This document shows positions 132 to 12,329 of a stretch of 64,000 nucleotides of DNA, one piece after another; the first letter of the stretch is position 1; each line of letters opens with the position of its first letter. Source of the DNA: Oscillospiraceae bacterium. GTDB lineage: Bacteria > Bacillota > Clostridia > Monoglobales > Monoglobaceae. The stretch is taken from NCBI GenBank assembly GCA_015068605.1, contig SVKF01000005.1:1-64000 (forward strand), read 5' to 3'. The notes beneath the pieces are model-generated. The model saw only the letters and a program-made list of their open reading frames with translations, was not told the DNA's origin and did not search any database. The position numbers and the translations under genes were made by a program.

Positions 132-164
132 AAAAAATAGTGGCCATTATGACCACTATTTTTT
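132..164. terminator. bidirectional terminator hairpin
   Basis: A perfect 12-bp stem (132-143 with 153-164) with a 9-nt loop; the outer stem is A-run against T-run, so it would work in both directions. The right arm overlaps the stop codon of the MATE gene on the minus strand. It closes the six-gene minus-strand operon and separates it from whatever lies left of the window. Confidence 0.8.
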
Positions 165-1593
165 ATTTGTTAGCAAGTAGTTTTTTGTCCTTAAGAAATT
201 CTTCTAAGGCTTTTTGTCCTGTATCGGTTACCGGTTTAATCCATTTATTGGATTTAAAATACCTGATGCAAAGAAATGCTTTTATGTAATCTTCACACAT
301 ATAACTGCAGGCAAATACCACAGGAAAGGGTAGTTTGAAAACAAATGCAGCTATTGTTGTAATAGGAACAGATATAAGCCAAAGGGTGATTAAATCGTAT
401 TTCATTCCTTTTTTGGTGTCCCCGCCACTTCGGAAAATTCCAACGATTGCGATATACGGAACATTTCTGAAAGCCAGCTCTAAGGCGTAAATAAGCATAA
501 TATGACGGGCTGATTCAAGGGTTATCCTTGAAATGTTTTCGCTTGTATTGAAAATACTGATAAGCGGGTCCCTGAAAATAACCACAAATAATCCAACAAT
601 AAGCCCGGTTAATGGGACTATAATCATATAACGGACAGAGTTCTTTGTTGCTTCCTTTATCTCTCCGCAACCAATATCCCGACCAACGATAACGCTTGAG
701 GCATTAATCATTCCGATAAAGAATGAAAGGGCTATATTTTCAAATGTCCTAAGAATTGAAACTGCGGCGGTATATTCGTAGCCCATATTTGAGAATATAA
801 CCGTGTAAACAACGGTTCCGAGCCCCCAAAGGGTTTCGTTAAGAATAACAGGGAAGGCTCTTTTTATAAACAGTATGCTAAAAGCCTTATCAAACCCTAA
901 AAGCTCCACGATTGGAGCAAAGAAAATATCGTCTTTCTTAATCGCACAAATAATAAGAATGATAAGTGGCCCCGACCAGGCGGAGATAACCGTTGCGATA
1001 GCGGCACCTTCAATGCCCAGCTTCGGAAGTCCGAAAGCACCGAAAATTAAACCGTAATCTAAAAATGCATTCAGAATTGTTGTGAAAAATGCCACAAACA
1101 TAGGAAGCTTCACTCGTTCGGTTGAACGAAGAACATTGTTAATTAGCAAATTCATAAGTATAGCGGGATAAGAAAAAACCGCAATTTTAAGATAACTGAC
1201 ACCTTCGTTCAAAACAGCCGGATTTCGATTGAATGCTCCGATAACAAGGTGGGGGGCAAAAAAGCCTATAGCCATAAACAAAACGGCAAACATCATTCCA
1301 AAAATGAGTGCTATTCCGTAAGTGTGAATAATTCCCTTTCGATTTCCGTCACCGTGGTATTGGGAGAAAAACACGGCTGCTCCGGAGCATATACCGAAAA
1401 TAACCATATTTAAAAGCCAACTCCATTGAGCGGCAATTCCGACTGCGGCAAGACTGACATCTCCAAGCTGACTTATCATAAGAGTGTCAACCAAGGTGAA
1501 TGAGCTTGTGAGAAGGTTTTGAATTGCAATGGGTATGGCGAGGGTCAACATTGATTTCCAGAAGGTTTTATCACCGAATAGATTATGTAGCAT
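163..1593 (-). CDS. MATE family efflux transporter
   Basis: 476 aa polytopic membrane protein of the MATE (NorM/DinF-like) antiporter family: about twelve hydrophobic segments in two homologous halves (roughly residues 15-220 and 240-450). The N-terminal half has the usual family look, with IPIAIQNLLTSSFTLVDTLM near residue 20 and a small-residue-rich first half. Start ATG is preceded by AAGGAC. It is the last gene of the operon that begins at 5732, 11 nt after the ABC transporter stop, so it is probably co-transcribed. MATE pumps export cationic drugs or small molecules in exchange for Na+ or H+; the substrate here is unknown. Being last in a PqqD/HPrK/peptidase/ABC operon suggests it could add to export or self-protection, but that is inference. 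Confidence 0.9.
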   Translation of the reverse strand: MLHNLFGDKTFWKSMLTLAIPIAIQNLLTSSFTLVDTLMISQLGDVSLAAVGIAAQWSWLLNMVIFGICSGAAVFFSQYHGDGNRKGIIHTYGIALIFGMMFAVLFMAIGFFAPHLVIGAFNRNPAVLNEGVSYLKIAVFSYPAILMNLLINNVLRSTERVKLPMFVAFFTTILNAFLDYGLIFGAFGLPKLGIEGAAIATVISAWSGPLIILIICAIKKDDIFFAPIVELLGFDKAFSILFIKRAFPVILNETLWGLGTVVYTVIFSNMGYEYTAAVSILRTFENIALSFFIGMINASSVIVGRDIGCGEIKEATKNSVRYMIIVPLTGLIVGLFVVIFRDPLISIFNTSENISRITLESARHIMLIYALELAFRNVPYIAIVGIFRSGGDTKKGMKYDLITLWLISVPITTIAAFVFKLPFPVVFACSYMCEDYIKAFLCIRYFKSNKWIKPVTDTGQKALEEFLKDKKLLANK

Positions 1594-1604
1594 AGTAATT
1601 GTCC

Positions 1605-3287
1605 TTATATTTCTTTAGTGTAGATTTTTTTGTTTTCAATTCTGATTTCCTTGTTGCATATATCATATGCCGCTCTCTTGTGGGAAATGATTATGCAGGT
1701 TTTGTCTTTCAGATTTTTTATATTCTGAAGAAGCTCTTTCTCGGTTTCTTCGTCAAGAGCAGAGGTTGCTTCGTCGAGAAGGATTATAGGCTCGCCGGAG
1801 AGGATTGCTCTGGCAACCGCAAGACGCTGAACCTGACCTTCGGAAAGACCAAAGCCTTTTTCTCCAACCATAGTTTCAAGCCCCATTGGAAAGTCTTTTA
1901 TGAATTTATCGGCGCAGCTTACAGCCAGGGCAAAGTCGATTTCTTCGTCAGTTGCATCAGGTTTGCAGATTGTTATGGCATCTCTTAAAGTGCCTGAAAG
2001 AAGCAGGTTCCCTTGAGGAACATATGAGAAAAGAGGTCTCGTACTTTTATCCGCAATGCGAGTTTTTCCGTCATTGAACTGAATGGAAATCTGTCCGTCC
2101 GTTGGATTTATAACACCTAAAAGAAGCTTTAAAAGGGTGCTTTTCCCTATTCCCGATATTCCGGAAATGACAGCGAAGTCGCCCTTCTTGATTTCAAGAT
2201 TTGCGTTTTCCAAAACAATGTCACGGTCATAACCGAAGCTTATGTTTTCAAAAAGGAGTGAGCTGAGCTGATTATAGGACGAAACATCAATAGCCTCGCA
2301 TTCTTCGCCCTTTTCACCATCCATTTCTTCGATTTCCATAACTCGCTCGGCTGATGCTAAAATACTGTAATAACGGGGCAAAATTCCCGACATACCGGCA
2401 AAAGGAGCCTGAATCTGATTAACAAGCTGAATAATTGTGGTGACCGTTCCGGCTGTTATGGCTCCGGCATAAAGATTAAACGCACCCCAACCGAAAGCGA
2501 AGATGAAACCAAGCTGAAAAACGAGGCTTAAACCTGTGTTTGCCGCAATACTGATTGTTCTTCGCTTCATTTTTGCCCTATAATTTTCGTCCTGAAATTC
2601 CTTTGCTTTGTCGTTTATTTTGTCCTCAATTCCGAAAACCTTAATCATAAGAATCCCACCGATAGACTCCTGCAAAAATGAACGAAGTGCACCATCGGTT
2701 TCCTGAACTCTTTTGTGAAGCTTTTTCATAAGCTTTCGGAAGAAGCTTGTGACAATAACCACCAATGTTCCTGCAATCAGAAACACTAAAGCAAAGCTCG
2801 AATCTAAAAGGATAAGCCCGATTGCCGCAAAAACAAGCCTTGTTATCATTGAGACAATAGAGGGAGCGATTGTTATAATTCCTTCGCTCATAATACTTAT
2901 ATCGCTTGTCAGCCTTGTCATAAGTTCTCCGCTGTGATAAGCCGTAATCTTGCTGTAGTCTTTGCTTAAAATAGAAGAAAAAAGCTTTGACTTAAAAAGA
3001 ATTTCGGTTTTTGCGCTGACTCTTACGGAAATGTTTTGAACAATAATTTTCAGTAAAAGCTGGGTGCAAATAAGAATAAGAAGAAAGCTTATCCCCGAAA
3101 TAAGGCTGTTTTTATTTCCAACGATAGCAGCATCTATAACCGTACTGCATTTAAAGGCGAATAAAACACCTAAAAATGATGAGAATGCATTAGAAATAAT
3201 CAGTAAAAAAACAGCAGGAAACTGATTTTTTACTGATTTTAATATCCATTTTAAAGTACTAAGGTCTTTCACTTTCTTATCTTGCAT
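1605..3287 (-). CDS. ABC exporter, fused permease and ATPase
   Basis: 560 aa half-transporter: six predicted membrane segments in residues 15-300, then a nucleotide-binding domain (about 335-560). Walker A is GISGIGKST near residue 380, signature LSEGQ near 483, Walker B plus D-loop ILLDEATSALDEE near 505, switch His in IIISHK near the end. There is no N-terminal C39 peptidase domain, so any leader cleavage must be done by another protein; the neighbouring S26-like protease is an obvious candidate. The start overlaps the peptidase gene by 19 nt. By family it would work as a homodimer exporting a peptide, lipid or drug. In lasso-peptide and related RiPP loci the D gene is exactly this type, but the substrate is not visible here. 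Confidence 0.93.
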   Translation of the reverse strand: MQDKKVKDLSTLKWILKSVKNQFPAVFLLIISNAFSSFLGVLFAFKCSTVIDAAIVGNKNSLISGISFLLILICTQLLLKIIVQNISVRVSAKTEILFKSKLFSSILSKDYSKITAYHSGELMTRLTSDISIMSEGIITIAPSIVSMITRLVFAAIGLILLDSSFALVFLIAGTLVVIVTSFFRKLMKKLHKRVQETDGALRSFLQESIGGILMIKVFGIEDKINDKAKEFQDENYRAKMKRRTISIAANTGLSLVFQLGFIFAFGWGAFNLYAGAITAGTVTTIIQLVNQIQAPFAGMSGILPRYYSILASAERVMEIEEMDGEKGEECEAIDVSSYNQLSSLLFENISFGYDRDIVLENANLEIKKGDFAVISGISGIGKSTLLKLLLGVINPTDGQISIQFNDGKTRIADKSTRPLFSYVPQGNLLLSGTLRDAITICKPDATDEEIDFALAVSCADKFIKDFPMGLETMVGEKGFGLSEGQVQRLAVARAILSGEPIILLDEATSALDEETEKELLQNIKNLKDKTCIIISHKRAAYDICNKEIRIENKKIYTKEI

Positions 3288-3745
3288 TTTCTAAGCCCCC
3301 ATCTGATTGCACGCTTTAACAAACTTTTCCTAAACCATCGCCGGATTTTGGCATAAAGGCAGAAAAGTTTCATATATAAGGAATTTACAGAGTGGAAGGA
3401 GGAGTCCCTGTTGATGCCCGTAGCCACACCTATCACTTGTTCGTATGCTATACCCGGCTCTAAAATTGTCTGATTATCACCACACATGGTAAAAGTATTA
3501 TCGGGCAAAACTTTGACAATTCGATGAAGAACAAAGCTTCCGTCCCTTCTTCTGTAAAATGCAATATCATTTTTTTTCAGTTGAGCCGTATTTTGGGTAA
3601 GAGTGACACTGTCCCTGCCCTGACGGATAAGCGGCAACATACTGATTCCGTGTGGTTTAAATGTGACCGTTCCGCCGTTTTTGAGTTGTTCTTCTATAAG
3701 CGGAAACATCTCCTTAAGAGAAACCTGTTTAACTTCACTATTCAT
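3269..3745 (-). CDS. S24/S26 family peptidase (signal-peptidase-like)
   Basis: 158 aa. The fold signature of the S24/S26 serine peptidases is clear: GISMLPLI with the nucleophile Ser35, then VLHRIVKV with His74, then MCGDNQT. A His in place of the general-base Lys is the arrangement of the SipW/eukaryotic-type signal peptidases. Unlike them it has no N-terminal membrane anchor; the C-terminus is strongly basic (about ten Arg/Lys in the last 30 residues), perhaps for membrane or precursor binding. It overlaps the PqqD-like gene by 8 nt and the ABC gene by 19 nt, implying translational coupling. Similar small S24/S26 proteins occur with HPrK-like and PqqD-like genes in peptide-modification loci of Firmicutes; leader removal is a reasonable but untested role. 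Confidence 0.8.
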   Translation of the reverse strand: MNSEVKQVSLKEMFPLIEEQLKNGGTVTFKPHGISMLPLIRQGRDSVTLTQNTAQLKKNDIAFYRRRDGSFVLHRIVKVLPDNTFTMCGDNQTILEPGIAYEQVIGVATGINRDSSFHSVNSLYMKLFCLYAKIRRWFRKSLLKRAIRWGLRKCKIRK

Positions 3746-4004
3746 CCAATAAATCCGCCTCGCGTATTTTATTTATAAAGGCATTGATGCCTTCTTTTGC
3801 AGTCTTTTCGTCAACATCATATTCTTCAAGCATTTTTTCAAGAAGTTCATCCTGAGTTGCACCATTTTCCAAAAGCTTCCATAAGAAAGCCCCACTGTCA
3901 TTTAAATTAATCATGCCGCCAAAATCCATTGTTTCAACACCTATTGAAACAACAACATTGCAGCCGGCAACTTCACGGAGCATATATCCCGGTTTAATTT
4001 TCAT
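3738..4004 (-). CDS. PqqD-like peptide chaperone (RiPP recognition element)
   Basis: 88 aa starting MKIKPGYMLREVAGCNVVVS; the fold is the PqqD winged-helix type: three beta strands with IGVETMDFGGMINLNDSGAFLW, followed by helices ending in the usual ARE(A)DLLDE-type tail. A longer frame extends upstream, but ATG 4004 has AAAGGAGACG correctly spaced and starts where the homology starts. It overlaps the 3' end of the kinase-like gene by 11 nt. PqqD domains bind leader peptides of ribosomal precursors and present them to modifying enzymes. In this operon the modifying enzymes would be the kinase-like and peptidase-like neighbours; no radical SAM enzyme, cyclase or precursor gene is seen. Confidence 0.8.
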   Translation of the reverse strand: MKIKPGYMLREVAGCNVVVSIGVETMDFGGMINLNDSGAFLWKLLENGATQDELLEKMLEEYDVDEKTAKEGINAFINKIREADLLDE

Positions 4005-4743
4005 AAAAATCGTCTCCTTTTGAATTTCTGTACATAAATTCATATGACATAACTGCCGCCTCATTTTCCATATTGCAGCCCATTTTGAAAACGGGAATGT
4101 GCGGCAGATGTGTGTCAAGAAAGCTTAAAAGCTTATCCATAAAATCATGGCTCGGATACCTTAAGGTTTGCCCAAGAACCAAAGCGGTTGCAGATTTCAT
4201 ATCTGCCTTTTCGATATGGTTTGACTCGGATTTTGAAATAAAGCATATTCCGCCTAAAGGAACGGAAATATTGCTGTTTTTGTTGTTTTTTCCGCTCCAT
4301 GGCGTTCCGTAAACAAATATCTTTCCGTCTACAAAACGCAAAGCAGGCTTGTCGTCGTTGATGACAACAGCATCACTGCCGAAAACTCTTTCCCATATTG
4401 CGGCATGGGTTGATTTCCCCGTTCCGCTTGGTGCGGAAAAGAGGTATGCCTTGCCTTTATAAGCCACGGAAGATGCATGAAGAACAAGCCCGTCAAAATC
4501 CAAAAGCCGTCGACAAAATTCATACCCTGTCCAGATATATTCTGCCTCGGAATGAGTCAATTCCGGATGTTCTTTGATACGGTTTTCAAAAAAAGCATTA
4601 TTAAAGCCAATTTCAAAATCAGCCTTATTGGGAAAATCACAGGCGTATTTATCGGACTGCAATATAAGTCGATTGCTTTCATAAAGCAGATTGATTAAAA
4701 TATTTAGGCCTGCAATTTTGCATTTAAGATAAGTCGGAGTCAT
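3994..4743 (-). CDS. HPr kinase-like protein
   Basis: 249 aa related to the C-terminal kinase domain of HPr kinase/phosphorylase. Motifs: LHASSVAYKGKAYLF (residues 88-102), Walker A SAPSGTGKSTHA (103-114), then VINDDKPALR (127-136), matching the HprK order of P-loop followed by an acidic metal-binding pair. It lacks the N-terminal HprK domain and is shorter than genuine HprK (about 310 aa), so it is not the catabolite-repression kinase. Kinases of this subfamily phosphorylate lasso peptides (for example in paeninodin-type clusters) or sit with PqqD-like and S24/S26 genes in Firmicutes. It begins 2 nt after the stop of the SLH protein, so the two are translated from one message. Confidence 0.82.
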   Translation of the reverse strand: MTPTYLKCKIAGLNILINLLYESNRLILQSDKYACDFPNKADFEIGFNNAFFENRIKEHPELTHSEAEYIWTGYEFCRRLLDFDGLVLHASSVAYKGKAYLFSAPSGTGKSTHAAIWERVFGSDAVVINDDKPALRFVDGKIFVYGTPWSGKNNKNSNISVPLGGICFISKSESNHIEKADMKSATALVLGQTLRYPSHDFMDKLLSFLDTHLPHIPVFKMGCNMENEAAVMSYEFMYRNSKGDDFYEN

Positions 4744-4745
4744 AA

Positions 4746-5732
4746 TTAATTGCCAAGACTGACATCGTCTTTAAATTCCAAAGAGGTTTCGCCGGGAACT
4801 CCGTTACCGGTGATTATATCATAATTTTCATACTGGTTCATATTATATAAATCTGCATGGACACCCGGTCTGATTAAACGGATGGAAGAGCATTTACCTT
4901 TATGAATCTCGTTTTTCTTACCAATTCTTACAACAAGTCGGTTATCAATGCTTGAATTTTTAACAACAGCACCATCGGTTGAGCCTTCGCCGATAATGAG
5001 GTCACCTGTGATATTTGCATTTTCGATTGTAACGCCTTTGCCGCGGACAAGAACATTTCCGGTTGGGAAATCCGAGTATGTGCCGGCATTATCAACATAA
5101 GTTGTAACCATACGATTCATAACTGCCGCGAATTCGCTACGCTTAATATTGTCTTTAGGGTTAAGCATTCCGTTTGAGCCACCAACATATCCGCTTGCAA
5201 CGATTGCCGCAACAAGCTCTCTTGCCCAAGGTGCAACAGCGGAAGCATCAGAAAACTGTGCAAGAACTTCATCAGCGGATGGAGATGGCTCTGCCACTTC
5301 CCATTCCACAAGATGTTCGTTTAATTTTTTGTCATAGTCCAAAGAGAACATACGGGCAAGAACTGCAAAAGTTTCCTCACGGGTAATATTATTTTTAGGA
5401 TTAAGCTTACCGTCAGAACCGTTAAAAGCGCCCATAGCCACAGCCTTTGACATAGAGGAATAGAACCAGTCAGACGGTGAAACATCTGTAAAAGCTGAAA
5501 TATCGGCTTCCTCGGTTGCGCCAAAAGCACGAACCATAATTGTTGCCATTTCTGCTCTTGTCATAGGGTCATCGGGACGGATATAACCGTTTGCTCCGCC
5601 AATAAGACCGTTGTTTACAGCATTGGTGAGCGCCTCGGTTGCCCAGTTGTCAGGCATATCCACAAAAACCTCCGCAGAACATACAGAGAAAAGCATAACT
5701 GCGCAAAGAAGTAAACTAAAAAACTTTTTCAT
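4746..5732 (-). CDS. secreted SLH-domain surface protein
   Basis: 328 aa with a typical signal peptide (MKKFFSLLLCAVMLFSVCSA). Three SLH domains follow: about 24-70 (ending DDPMTRAEMATIMVRAF), 80-126 (KNNITREETFAVLARMF) and 160-207 (KDNIKRSEFAAVMNRMV). The TRAE/TREE/KRSE signature binds pyruvylated wall polysaccharide. The C-terminal 110 residues are beta-rich and resemble a short parallel-beta run (GKGVTIENANITGDLIIGEG) and have no cysteine-rich or glycine-leader type precursor character. It is the first gene of the operon and has its own strong promoter, only 2 nt before the kinase-like gene. Whether it is a substrate, a scaffold or merely co-transcribed with the cassette is unknown. Confidence 0.9.
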   Translation of the reverse strand: MKKFFSLLLCAVMLFSVCSAEVFVDMPDNWATEALTNAVNNGLIGGANGYIRPDDPMTRAEMATIMVRAFGATEEADISAFTDVSPSDWFYSSMSKAVAMGAFNGSDGKLNPKNNITREETFAVLARMFSLDYDKKLNEHLVEWEVAEPSPSADEVLAQFSDASAVAPWARELVAAIVASGYVGGSNGMLNPKDNIKRSEFAAVMNRMVTTYVDNAGTYSDFPTGNVLVRGKGVTIENANITGDLIIGEGSTDGAVVKNSSIDNRLVVRIGKKNEIHKGKCSSIRLIRPGVHADLYNMNQYENYDIITGNGVPGETSLEFKDDVSLGN

Positions 5733-5773: not shown

Positions 5774-5802
5774 ATTATACTACACATTTAAAAATTTTTC
5801 AA
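5774..5802 (-). promoter_or_regulatory. sigma-A type promoter of the SLH/HPrK operon
   Basis: Read on the minus strand: TTGAAA (5797-5802), 17-nt spacer, TATAAT (5774-5779). It lies 42 nt upstream of the SLH gene start codon. Confidence 0.75.
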
Positions 5803-5857
5803 TAGGTTTTTATCATATTAGAAACAAATTTGTATAAATATAAATGAGGTGAAAAAT

Positions 5858-6775
5858 ATGAAACTGATAAATAAAAAGGGATACGATTATGAAAATTTGA
5901 TAAGGGATATTGATAAGCTTGGAAAAAGATACCCGTTTTGTGATATTTTTTCCATAGGGGAGAGTGTAACAAAAAAAGAAATTATTTGTATCAAATTAGG
6001 AAGCGGCTCAATAAATGTTTTATATAACGGGGCTCACCATGGTGCGGAATGGATAACATCAGCCCTTCTTATGAAATTTATTGAGGAATATTCGGAGGCT
6101 TATGTGGGCGGCAAGAAAATCGGTGAAATCTCGGCAGCATTTCTTATGGAGAATGTGTCGCTTTATGTTGTTCCCATGGTAAATCCTGACGGAGTTGATA
6201 TTGCGGTGAACGGGGCAAGAAAATATACTGCGGATTTTCCGAGATTGTTTAGAGAAAATAATAATTCCTCCGACTTTTCCGGGTGGAAAGCAAATTTTAA
6301 CGGGGTCGATTTAAATCATAATTATGATGCATTGTGGGAATTATCAAGAGATGGGGAAGAAAAAGAAGGAATATTCGGGCCGGGACCAACAAAATACGCA
6401 GGTGAAGCACCGTTTTCCGAGCCTGAAACAGTTGCAATGAAAAATTTGACGGAAGAAAATGATTTTAAAATTACTGTTTCATTCCATAGTCAAGGCAGAG
6501 AGGTGTATTATAATTTTAACGGAAAAGAGCCAATATATTCCGGCTTTCTTGCAAAGGCGCTGACGCTGGGCTCACCGTATAATGTTGTAATTCCGCAAGG
6601 AAGTGCATCTTATGGAGGGTACAAGGATTGGTTTATTGAAACAACGGGAAGATTAGGCTTCACCGTCGAAGTCGGAGAGGGGGAAAATCCTATTCCCATA
6701 AGCGAATTAAGTGGGATATATAAAGAAACACTGCAAATTTTAACGGGTGGAATGAAAATCGCTTGCCTTATTTAA
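5858..6775 (+). CDS. M14 family zinc carboxypeptidase
   Basis: 305 aa, cytoplasmic by appearance (no signal peptide). M14 zinc motif: HGAE (His61, Glu64), third ligand His210 in VSFHSQGREVYYN, general base Glu271 in GFTVEVGEGENP; NPDGVD at 109-114 is also typical. The closest functional relatives are gamma-D-glutamyl-diaminopimelate endopeptidases that trim muropeptides in sporulation or wall recycling; lack of a signal peptide fits recycling. The residue usually Arg in the substrate-carboxylate motif (DLNRN) is His here (DLNHNYD). Start chosen at ATG 5858, which has AGGTG six bases upstream; an in-frame GTG at 5849 overlaps that site. Confidence 0.85.
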   Translation: MKLINKKGYDYENLIRDIDKLGKRYPFCDIFSIGESVTKKEIICIKLGSGSINVLYNGAHHGAEWITSALLMKFIEEYSEAYVGGKKIGEISAAFLMENVSLYVVPMVNPDGVDIAVNGARKYTADFPRLFRENNNSSDFSGWKANFNGVDLNHNYDALWELSRDGEEKEGIFGPGPTKYAGEAPFSEPETVAMKNLTEENDFKITVSFHSQGREVYYNFNGKEPIYSGFLAKALTLGSPYNVVIPQGSASYGGYKDWFIETTGRLGFTVEVGEGENPIPISELSGIYKETLQILTGGMKIACLI

Positions 6776-8225: not shown

Positions 8226-9503
8226 ATGTTGATATACAGAGTAAAAGCCGGGGACACAATATTTGGAATTGCGGAAGAAAATGGTGTTTCGGTGTTTAAT
8301 ATTCTTGCAAACAACGGAATAACCCTTGATGAACCGCTGGTCGTCGGGCAAACACTTGTTATTTTGAAGCCTGATATAACACATACGGTAAAAAGTAGGG
8401 AAAGCTTAAATCAGATTGCTAAGGAGTATGGAATCAGTCTTAATCAGCTTTATCGGAATAATCCGCAGCTTGGCGGAAGGGGAGATGTCTTTCCGGGGCA
8501 GTCGCTTTTTATTTCCTATGAAGGAGAGCCTCTTGGAAATGCAGAGATAACGGGATATGCCTATGAATTTGTCGATTTGGATTTATTAAGATTTCAGATG
8601 CCATATCTGACATATATGATGCCGTTTACCTATGGATTTACACCGTCGGGCGAGTTGATAATTCCTGATGATGAGCCCCTTATTGCGATTGCAAGGGAGT
8701 ATGGCACTATACCTCTTTTGCATCTGTCCACATTGACGGAGAACGGAAATTTCAGCAATGAGCTTGCACAACAAATATTAAACGATGAGGCGGCACAGCA
8801 AAATCTTATAGAGAATGTGTTGGGGATAATAAACGAAAAGGGCTATGGGGGTCTGGATATAGATTTTGAATTTCTTTCGATAGAGGATAACCTGAAATAT
8901 CCTGCACTCATTCAGAAATTCCGTGACAGACTAAATCCATTGGGGAAAATAGTTATAACTGCTCTTGCGCCAAAAACCTCCGCAGAGCAGAAAGGACTTT
9001 TGTACGAGGGGCATAGATATAAGGAAATCGGAGAGGCGTCAGACGCTGTCTTTTTGATGACCTACGAATGGGGCTATACATACGGGCCGCCGCTTGCCGT
9101 TGCCCCGATTGAGCCGGTCAGGAAAGTTATAGAATATGCTTTAACCGAAATTCCGAGAGAAAAAATTATTATGGGGTTGCCCAATTACGGCTATAACTGG
9201 ACACTTCCGTATGTATCGGGGGAAAGCAGGGCGGATTCCATTTCAAATGTTGAGGCAGTAGAAACAGCGAGGCGATACGGAGCAGAGATTTTATTTGATG
9301 AATATGCCATGGCGCCGTATTTTAATTACAGGGACGAAAACGGAAATGAGCATGAGGTGTGGTTTGAGGATGCAGAGAGTATAGAGGCAAAGCTTCGCTT
9401 GATAAATGAATATGGTCTTCGTGGAGGCGGATATTGGAATCTGATGAGACCATTCCCTGAAAACTGGGCGGTATTAAACAATTTGTATAATATAATTCAA
9501 TAG
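8226..9503 (+). CDS. sleL: LysM-GH18 spore cortex hydrolase (SleL/YaaH-like)
   Basis: 425 aa. Two LysM domains at residues 2-47 and 51-97 (YRVKAGDTIFGIAEENGVS; HTVKSRESLNQIAKEYGIS) bind peptidoglycan; a GH18 domain fills 105-425 with the catalytic DxDxE motif as LDIDFEF (acid Glu215). This architecture is that of SleL/YaaH, an N-acetylglucosaminidase acting on cortex fragments during germination. There is no signal peptide, as usual for this spore-associated family. Start ATG has GAGGTGG upstream. It agrees with sigG and ymxH elsewhere in the window in pointing to a spore former. Confidence 0.9.
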   Translation: MLIYRVKAGDTIFGIAEENGVSVFNILANNGITLDEPLVVGQTLVILKPDITHTVKSRESLNQIAKEYGISLNQLYRNNPQLGGRGDVFPGQSLFISYEGEPLGNAEITGYAYEFVDLDLLRFQMPYLTYMMPFTYGFTPSGELIIPDDEPLIAIAREYGTIPLLHLSTLTENGNFSNELAQQILNDEAAQQNLIENVLGIINEKGYGGLDIDFEFLSIEDNLKYPALIQKFRDRLNPLGKIVITALAPKTSAEQKGLLYEGHRYKEIGEASDAVFLMTYEWGYTYGPPLAVAPIEPVRKVIEYALTEIPREKIIMGLPNYGYNWTLPYVSGESRADSISNVEAVETARRYGAEILFDEYAMAPYFNYRDENGNEHEVWFEDAESIEAKLRLINEYGLRGGGYWNLMRPFPENWAVLNNLYNIIQ

Positions 9504-11105: not shown

Positions 11106-12314
11106 TTACTCTTCTTCGTCAGGCAAAAACAACAGCCAGTCGGAGGTTTCACATTTATTATATGAATTGTCACCGCAGGAAAAAACCTCTCCGTCAAAAG
11201 TCAAGCCTAAAGAATAATCACTGCCGGCAGAAACGGCGACAACATCTGACCAATAACTAACGGAAAGCTGGTCGGACGAATTAAGACCCGTTGATAAAAC
11301 CGTTCCGTCTGATTTTAGCGCAAGAGTGTGGTTGTATCCGCATGAAATCGTAAGAATATCAGTCCATTTATCAACCTCGCATTGGTTATATTGATTATTT
11401 CCTATTGCGGAAACAGTTCCGTTGGAGTGCAGGAAAACAGAGAAGAATGCACCTGCTGATACGGCATCAATATCTTTAAATTGAGAAACGTCGCATTGCC
11501 CGTATTGGTTATTGCCTATGGCTTTAACAGTTCCGTTTTTCGTTACGCCGAGAATGTGGTTAGGACCTGCTGAAACAGAAACAATATTGGTCCATTTTTT
11601 AACATTTGCAAGCTCTGAATCGGATGGACCGGCATAGACAACTTTATTTTCATCGGTTATTCCGACGGTATAATTTTCAGAGGCTGAAAGATATATAATA
11701 TTTTTCCAGTTTTTGGTATTGCATTGTCCGCCGGAATTATCACCAAAAGACCTGACGGTTCCGTCCTTTAGAAGAACTGCAGAGTGATTTCCGCCTGATG
11801 CAACGGAAACGGCGTTATTGATGTTTGAAAGATTTGTTTGACCGAATGAGTTGTTGCCGGTTGAAACTATATGTCCGTCTGAGACGAGACCGAGAGTGTG
11901 GTTAGCTCCCGCTGAAATATAATTTTGGAAATTACTCGTACTGTTTCTTGTTTTACCGTAGAGAATCATGCTTCGGAGTGAACTGTCTTTATAATCCCCA
12001 AGGTCCATAAAAATGGCAATAGCCTCGCTGTCTTTTCCGCTGTCCATAAGAGAAACGGCGGTGTTATAGCGAATTGATGGGATTATAATAAAATATAATA
12101 TAACAAAAATAGCGAGAAGTCCTGCAATTAACGGAAGTAAAAATGCAGGCTTTTTGATTTTATCAATCTTTTTGTTTGTGACAGGGCTTGTTGAAACAGT
12201 AATATTTTTAGAGGTGTAAACCGTAGAACCGCAATATGGACAGGTATTGTCAATTTCGGGAAGTGTTTCCGAATTTATGGACGCATTGCAGTTATGACAT
12301 TTGATTTCGTTCAA
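11106..12314 (-). CDS. membrane-anchored RCC1-repeat protein with zinc ribbon
   Basis: 402 aa. N-terminal zinc ribbon (CHNCNAS...CPYCGS), a single transmembrane helix near 55-80 (AFLLPLIAGLLAIFVILYFI), a short helical TPR-like piece (SLMDSGKDSEAIAIFMDLGDY), then about seven RCC1-type repeats (pattern SAG.NHTLGL..DG.V.STG.N..GQ) forming a beta-propeller, probably outside the cell. The start is TTG 12314: GGAGG lies eight bases upstream, and the in-frame GTG at 12323 falls inside that site. Seven bases after the psd stop, so it is probably last in the pssA-psd operon. Function unknown; RCC1 propellers are protein-interaction platforms. Confidence 0.75.
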   Translation of the reverse strand: MNEIKCHNCNASINSETLPEIDNTCPYCGSTVYTSKNITVSTSPVTNKKIDKIKKPAFLLPLIAGLLAIFVILYFIIIPSIRYNTAVSLMDSGKDSEAIAIFMDLGDYKDSSLRSMILYGKTRNSTSNFQNYISAGANHTLGLVSDGHIVSTGNNSFGQTNLSNINNAVSVASGGNHSAVLLKDGTVRSFGDNSGGQCNTKNWKNIIYLSASENYTVGITDENKVVYAGPSDSELANVKKWTNIVSVSAGPNHILGVTKNGTVKAIGNNQYGQCDVSQFKDIDAVSAGAFFSVFLHSNGTVSAIGNNQYNQCEVDKWTDILTISCGYNHTLALKSDGTVLSTGLNSSDQLSVSYWSDVVAVSAGSDYSLGLTFDGEVFSCGDNSYNKCETSDWLLFLPDEEE

Positions 12315-12329
12315 ATAAATCACCTCCGA

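Follow-up and report, generated by a model that had tools for sequence, protein, structure and literature searches.

A six-gene operon of an Oscillospiraceae bacterium as a probable trans-acting machinery for phosphopeptides of the linear polyphosphorylated type

The window analyzed in this study (64,000 nucleotides (nt); positions 1 to 64,000 of contig SVKF01000005.1, assembly GCA_015068605.1, Oscillospiraceae bacterium) carries at 163-5732, on the minus strand, a six-gene operon for a surface-layer homology (SLH) protein, an HprK-like kinase, a PqqD-like recognition element (RRE, the leader-binding element of ribosomally synthesized and post-translationally modified peptides, RiPPs), an S26 protease, an ATP-binding cassette (ABC) exporter and a MATE transporter. 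What is the substrate of such a set of enzymes, given that no precursor gene is visible beside it? An earlier note on this DNA had offered two answers, maturation of the SLH protein or export of a peptide whose precursor lies elsewhere. The comparison made here was with the linear polyphosphorylated peptides (LPP), RiPPs of Bacilli described from the lpp cluster of Paenibacillus alginolyticus (Popov et al., 2026; PMC13381572). It is highly probable, in our judgement, that the operon is a trans-acting phosphopeptide machinery of the LPP type. Gene content, the precursors, their co-occurrence with the kinase, gene pairing, covariation between peptide cores and the C-terminal domains of secreted partners, and conserved active sites were all observed directly.

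Precursor peptides encoded in trans

A search for short open reading frames (ORFs) found no convincing precursor-like ORF in the whole 64 kb window, as the earlier note had reported for the operon and its surroundings, and a precursor in or near the operon was ruled out. Eight short peptides of kinase loci have a YxxP leader in common. Peptides are encoded next to the kinase in loci L034, L035, L051, L052, L053, L151, L157 and L159. A hidden Markov model (HMM) was built from these eight peptides and then from 20 leaders, with the motif YxxPxxExxxFxxEDVITxS. Searches with the HMM detected two precursors in this genome, both on other contigs: C12 (MKKLFEMPSIELTKFDVEDVITAS...) and C13 (MKKSYEAPRMEIVSFKTEEKICDG...). 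A close counterpart of the C13 peptide is encoded in the sole other genome of the genus. The precursors gave no match in Pfam, and their NCBIfam matches were far below the cut-offs. Substitutions among close peptides were distributed over the three codon positions as 355/332/682, the third being hit about twice as often as the first or second, as in coding genes. A Ser at Tyr+19 is found in 76/86 peptides (88%) and in 20/20 of the hold-out set, and is the predicted phosphosite; it is missing from 7/8 peptides of one kinase-locus subtype. The genomes of relatives encode 1-23 precursors each; in G236, G066 and G006, precursor genes numbering up to 23, 16 and 15, respectively, are accompanied by no more than one or two homologues of the kinase.

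Kinase homologues were found in 40/100 relatives. Kinase and peptide occurred together in 31 genomes and the peptide alone in 3 (p = 1.6e-14; p = 3.7e-9 after removal of the genomes that had seeded the model). The survey was then taken to the class (293 Clostridia-class genomes, all at least 90% complete except this genome), where 81 genomes were kinase-positive and the kinase was present in 49/50 peptide genomes (p = 9e-33). The class genomes outside the first survey gave p = 3.8e-22, the denominator of this sub-table being an estimate, and by genus 35/35 peptide genera were also kinase genera (p = 2.9e-22). Together with the two trans precursors, this co-occurrence strongly supports a precursor located elsewhere in the genome.

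Operon components and their predicted roles

All six ORFs proposed earlier were confirmed on the minus strand, at the positions given. The gaps or overlaps between them, in the order SLH to MATE, are 2, 11, 8, 19 and 11 nt, in agreement with the 2 to 19 nt first reported. The single strong promoter was likewise recovered: the promoter scan returned a sigma-70-type element (TTGAAA-17-TATAAT, 5774..5802, minus strand, 11/12 consensus positions) upstream of the SLH start. A likely intrinsic terminator (hairpin and T-run, ~133..165, minus strand) stands directly after the MATE stop; it was read by eye and is absent from the list of the scan. The assembled contig ends at window base 1, yet completeness of the operon is suggested by the hairpin.

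The kinase (249 amino acids (aa), 3994..4743, minus strand) is of the HprK/PEPCK fold and LppK-like. Its NCBIfam matches, ScmC (1.5e-8) and HprK_rel_A (1e-4), were both below the cut-offs; its AlphaFold2 (AF2) model (predicted local distance difference test, pLDDT, 91.2) matches PEPCK and HprK/P structures, and the Walker A motif (106-113), H89, N129 and D131 are 95-100% conserved in 43 sequences. Fold and active site point to an HprK-like peptide kinase, which would phosphorylate the conserved Ser at Tyr+19, the counterpart of Ser3 in LppA and BsfA. The genome encodes a second kinase, 32% identical (L043:8106-8801; G000:C23:12605-13291). Its gene adjoins that of a SulP-type transporter, an SLH protein of 850 aa that carries a phosphodiester glycosidase (NAGPA) domain is encoded nearby, and no PqqD or S26 gene accompanies it.

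The discrete RRE (PqqD/LppB-like, 88 aa, 3738..4004, minus strand; Pfam PqqD, 1.9e-17) probably starts at the ATG at 4004 rather than at the upstream TTG. It matches LppB (PDB 9x8z, 0.0012) and the lasso B1 protein TbiB1 (4.7e-5). Residues L32, N33, Y60 and F74 of the LppB leader pocket align with L34, N35, Y62 and F76 of the window RRE, which are conserved at 88-97% (N35, Y62 and F76 at 94-97%) and are among the most conserved of the family; D70 of LppB is replaced by G72. LPP-type RREs bind short N-terminal leaders (PMC13381572), and the RRE of the operon would bind the YxxP leader of the short precursors whose genes lie on other parts of the genome. A further PqqD-like protein of this genome (L002; G000:C15:4574-4744) is encoded beside an OPT-like transporter and is apparently unrelated to the operon.

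The protease (S26, SipW/Sec11-type, LppS-like, 158 aa, 3269..3745, minus strand) gave weak library matches only (NCBIfam SipW, 2.3e-4; Pfam S24, 0.0038), and an N-terminal membrane helix is not obvious. S35-M36, H74-R75 and G89-D90 are 96-100% conserved in 27 homologues, the pattern of a Ser-His signal peptidase, and the Ser-His spacing of 39 equals that of LppS (S29-H68; PMC13381572). The protein is a predicted leader peptidase and would cut off the leader, the cleavage probably falling immediately ahead of the Thr at Tyr+17. Export of the linear product would fall to the MsbA-like, LppD-like ABC protein (560 aa, 1605..3287, minus strand; Pfam ABC_membrane, 7.6e-28, and ABC_tran, 2e-23), which is without a C39 peptidase domain. 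The MATE transporter (476 aa, 163..1593, minus strand; Pfam MatE, 1.7e-54) is probably a passenger; it is not conserved, is missing from the cassettes of genus g9, and was rejected as a part of the system.

The first gene of the operon is of the SLH type, as had been noted earlier: its product (328 aa, 4746..5732, minus strand) has a signal peptide, three Pfam SLH repeats (2.4e-29) and a beta-helix-like tail. It is a candidate wall-anchored component and the likely wall-bound partner in the system. In six genomes of g9, another genus of the same family, the cassette is SLH-HprK-PqqD-S26, without ABC or MATE, and the SLH orthologue keeps its position at 42-50% identity to the window protein. 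Other families have the arrangement PqqD-S26-ABC-secreted protein-short peptide-HprK-SLH. The ABC gene recurs next to PqqD-S26 in relatives. The PqqD counts were limited by length because, on iteration, the PqqD model began to pick up kinases. Literature text searches found no prior description of the SLH, HprK and PqqD combination.

That the machinery phosphorylates and trims the co-encoded SLH protein itself, as the earlier note had suggested, would fit the place of this gene near the kinase in one operon, the orthologue kept in g9, and the survey of kinase neighbourhoods, in which SLH genes adjoin 19/44 kinases against 33/471 other genes (p = 1e-9). Short peptides, however, co-occur with the machinery. 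A YxxP leader is missing from the SLH protein, whose tail is what varies from one orthologue to the next; in other families the SLH protein encoded next to the kinase belongs to another type and lies on its opposite side; and the known RREs of the LPP type bind leaders that are short and N-terminal (PMC13381572). We consider this explanation improbable.

The link to kinase-modified lasso peptides drawn in the earlier note was useful, but LPP is the nearest family, with a SipW-like protease instead of B2 and with no cyclase (PMC13381572). A lasso cluster that decayed by loss of cyclase, B2 and precursor could account for an RRE similar to lasso B1 proteins (TbiB1) and for a leader resembling the YxxP leaders of lasso peptides (PMC10368454). 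None of the six operon genes encodes an AsnB-like macrolactam cyclase, as had been stated, and the one strong Asn-synthetase match of the genome, located away from the operon, is a full-length AsnB of the ordinary kind. Neither this genome nor any of the 40 kinase-positive relatives has the protease B2 (PF13471), and no cyclase or B2 was seen beside the cassette in the close relatives surveyed. Both refuting conditions named in the earlier note thus turned out negative: B2 is missing from the relatives as well, and SLH genes do recur beside the kinase. With active sites conserved across many genera and intact precursors in existence, decay appears very improbable.

Other-family loci are often near Wzz, LytR-CpsA-Psr or PF14907 genes, the last being present in 7 relatives' loci. 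In this genome an LppN-type PF14907 gene lies at C16:74552, on the contig of the operon and outside it; an LppN-like nucleotidyltransferase of a capsule locus may decorate the phosphate. The capsule-type cluster that ends in this PF14907 nucleotidyltransferase (406 aa) lies about 70 kb from the operon (L239:3944-9668; G000:C16:70-76 kb) and also encodes a Wzx-like flippase, a UDP-sugar dehydrogenase and an epimerase. In genus g6 (L147, L150 and L158) a PF14907-like nucleotidyltransferase gene stands between PqqD and S26, with the ABC gene on the opposite strand. Around the operon, the window encodes an M14-type carboxypeptidase, divergent from it (5849-6775, plus strand), and a protein with LysM and GH18-like parts (8226-9503, plus strand) which, read by eye, resembles spore-germination hydrolases. 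Two membrane-anchored zinc-ribbon proteins with RCC1-like repeats are encoded in the same genome, one in the window (11106-12323, minus strand) and one at L240:4837-6030 (minus strand).

Pairing of precursors with secreted proteins

A same-strand gene was found at most 400 nt upstream of 89/94 distinct peptides, usually 2-50 nt away. A simple rule recognized a signal peptide in 77/89 of these partners, several of the others being cut off by the fetched stretch. In hold-out genomes, which had no part in model building, a long gene preceded 19/20 peptides, most with a signal peptide. The C12 peptide of this genome is preceded by dockerin and cohesin genes; this tandem (G000:C12:83600-85600; L094:6685-8580) may form a small surface assembly of the cohesin-dockerin type that has an LPP-type precursor of its own.

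An HMM of the C-terminal domain of the partners recovered 48-52/79 of them, in several genera, and 7/930 other proteins, of which at least 5 of 7 sit 230-263 nt upstream of a peptide, beyond the first cut-off. The domain has no Pfam match and marginal NCBIfam matches only, and structure prediction for that of L035 gave no usable fold (pLDDT 48). Only 2/19 hold-out partners carry the domain, which is therefore lineage-specific; a universal C-terminal domain was rejected on this count, and profile links between groups were weak.

Similarity of the peptide cores followed that of the partner C-terminal domains in three groups (Mantel r = 0.96, 0.78 and 0.41), and continued to do so after partialling out the remainder of the protein (0.94, 0.77 and 0.30); once the C-terminal domain was accounted for, the N-terminal part had little or no explanatory value (-0.24, 0.04 and 0.14). 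G066 has two matched types of core and C-terminal domain. Since adjacent genes may be copied together, the covariation speaks for a co-inherited unit and not for binding.

The peptides might be real and yet serve another purpose, for instance by acting as chaperones of the secreted proteins or as their translation-coupled partners, and have no more than ancestry or regulation in common with the kinase cassette. Their pairing with secreted proteins is indeed more consistent than that with the cassette, and some cassettes are without a kinase. Against this stand the kinase in 49 of the 50 peptide genomes, the peptides inside kinase loci in several families, and a leader that bears the motif recognized by the RRE, with a Ser fixed where LppA and BsfA are phosphorylated. 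Such a separate purpose is unlikely.

For the LPP-type machinery, the product would probably work at the cell surface with the C-terminal domain of the co-encoded secreted protein. Tentatively, each exported phosphopeptide may be the dedicated partner or anchor of that domain, coupling the protein to the wall via the SLH protein; we hold this as a possibility rather than an expectation. If true, one set of kinase, RRE and protease would equip a whole surface-protein repertoire for display, and RiPP chemistry would underlie a new way of sorting or assembling surface proteins.

Comparison with known systems

LPP clusters encode an HprK-like kinase, a discrete RRE, a SipW-like leader peptidase, an MsbA-like exporter and a nucleoside triphosphate (NTP) transferase but no cyclase, and their precursors have a YxxP leader and a core phosphorylated at Ser3 (PMC13381572). 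The first four proteins are present here and the cyclase is absent in both; the YxxP leader, the Ser near the start of the core and the ties to capsule loci (in relatives, and in this genome for the NTP transferase) are further likenesses. There are also differences. The NTP transferase LppN is not in the operon, its PF14907 counterpart lying elsewhere on the contig; LPP clusters hold one to three precursors, whereas the window holds none and two are in trans; the precursors here, of which a genome may hold up to 23, are scattered and stand in pairs with genes for secreted proteins; the cassette includes an SLH gene and sometimes misses the kinase; the Ser is at Tyr+19 against +18 in LppA; the named relatives are Clostridia and not Bacilli; and no kinase-positive genome of this survey has a lasso B2 or lasso partner pathway.

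Several points weigh against assigning the operon to LPP-type phosphopeptides. The Bacilli leader logo is YxxPxVLxHQxIxFETxxS (PMC13381572), so that YxxP and the core-start Ser are kept while the middle differs (FxxEDVITxS against VLxHQxIxFETxxS). Judged from sequence, the cassette is best filed as a variant of the LPP kind rather than a textbook member, because of its dispersed and paired precursors, SLH gene, leader motif, kinase gaps and lack of a lasso partner pathway. The C13 peptide has neither Ser+19 nor an upstream secreted-protein gene, and 32/81 kinase-positive class genomes (about 40%) had no peptide at the threshold used; because of these two points and of the subtype without Ser+19 in 7/8 peptides, more than one modification site or function is possible. 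Five loci (L141-L145) have SLH-PqqD-S26(-ABC) and peptides with no adjacent kinase. The host genome is 83% complete. Co-duplication alone can make adjacent genes co-vary. Binding, phosphosite, cleavage site, export and surface role are all such as we infer, the chemical steps being taken from homology.

The phosphorylated lasso peptides (paeninodin, pseudomycoidin and Bsf; PMC9266682, PMC10368454) share with the present system an HprK-like kinase, a B1-type RRE and a [Y/W]xxP leader, and the Ser at Tyr+19 has the spacing of the BsfA phosphoserine, which is at exactly Tyr+19 (PMC10368454). The present system differs by having no macrolactam cyclase or B2, and by a precursor outside the cluster. 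Prochlorosins are RiPPs in which one enzyme serves many precursors; one machinery, many dispersed precursors, a conserved leader and a variable core are common to both, whereas the chemistry is another and each precursor here is paired with a secreted protein. Pathways of the present kind can run with genome-scattered precursors that cluster-based precursor mining misses, and the leader model supplied here serves to find them.

In surface-fibre operons of the SipW/TasA type, a SipW-type protease is linked to secreted surface proteins, as it is here; the protease of the operon differs in that it has no obvious N-terminal membrane helix, is encoded beside an RRE and has short peptides as its predicted substrates. 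The role of LPP was stated as unknown by their authors (PMC13381572). In many genera, the arrangement described here links LPP-type peptides with surface proteins that are secreted and with an S-layer protein, and the role of the peptides therefore becomes directly testable.

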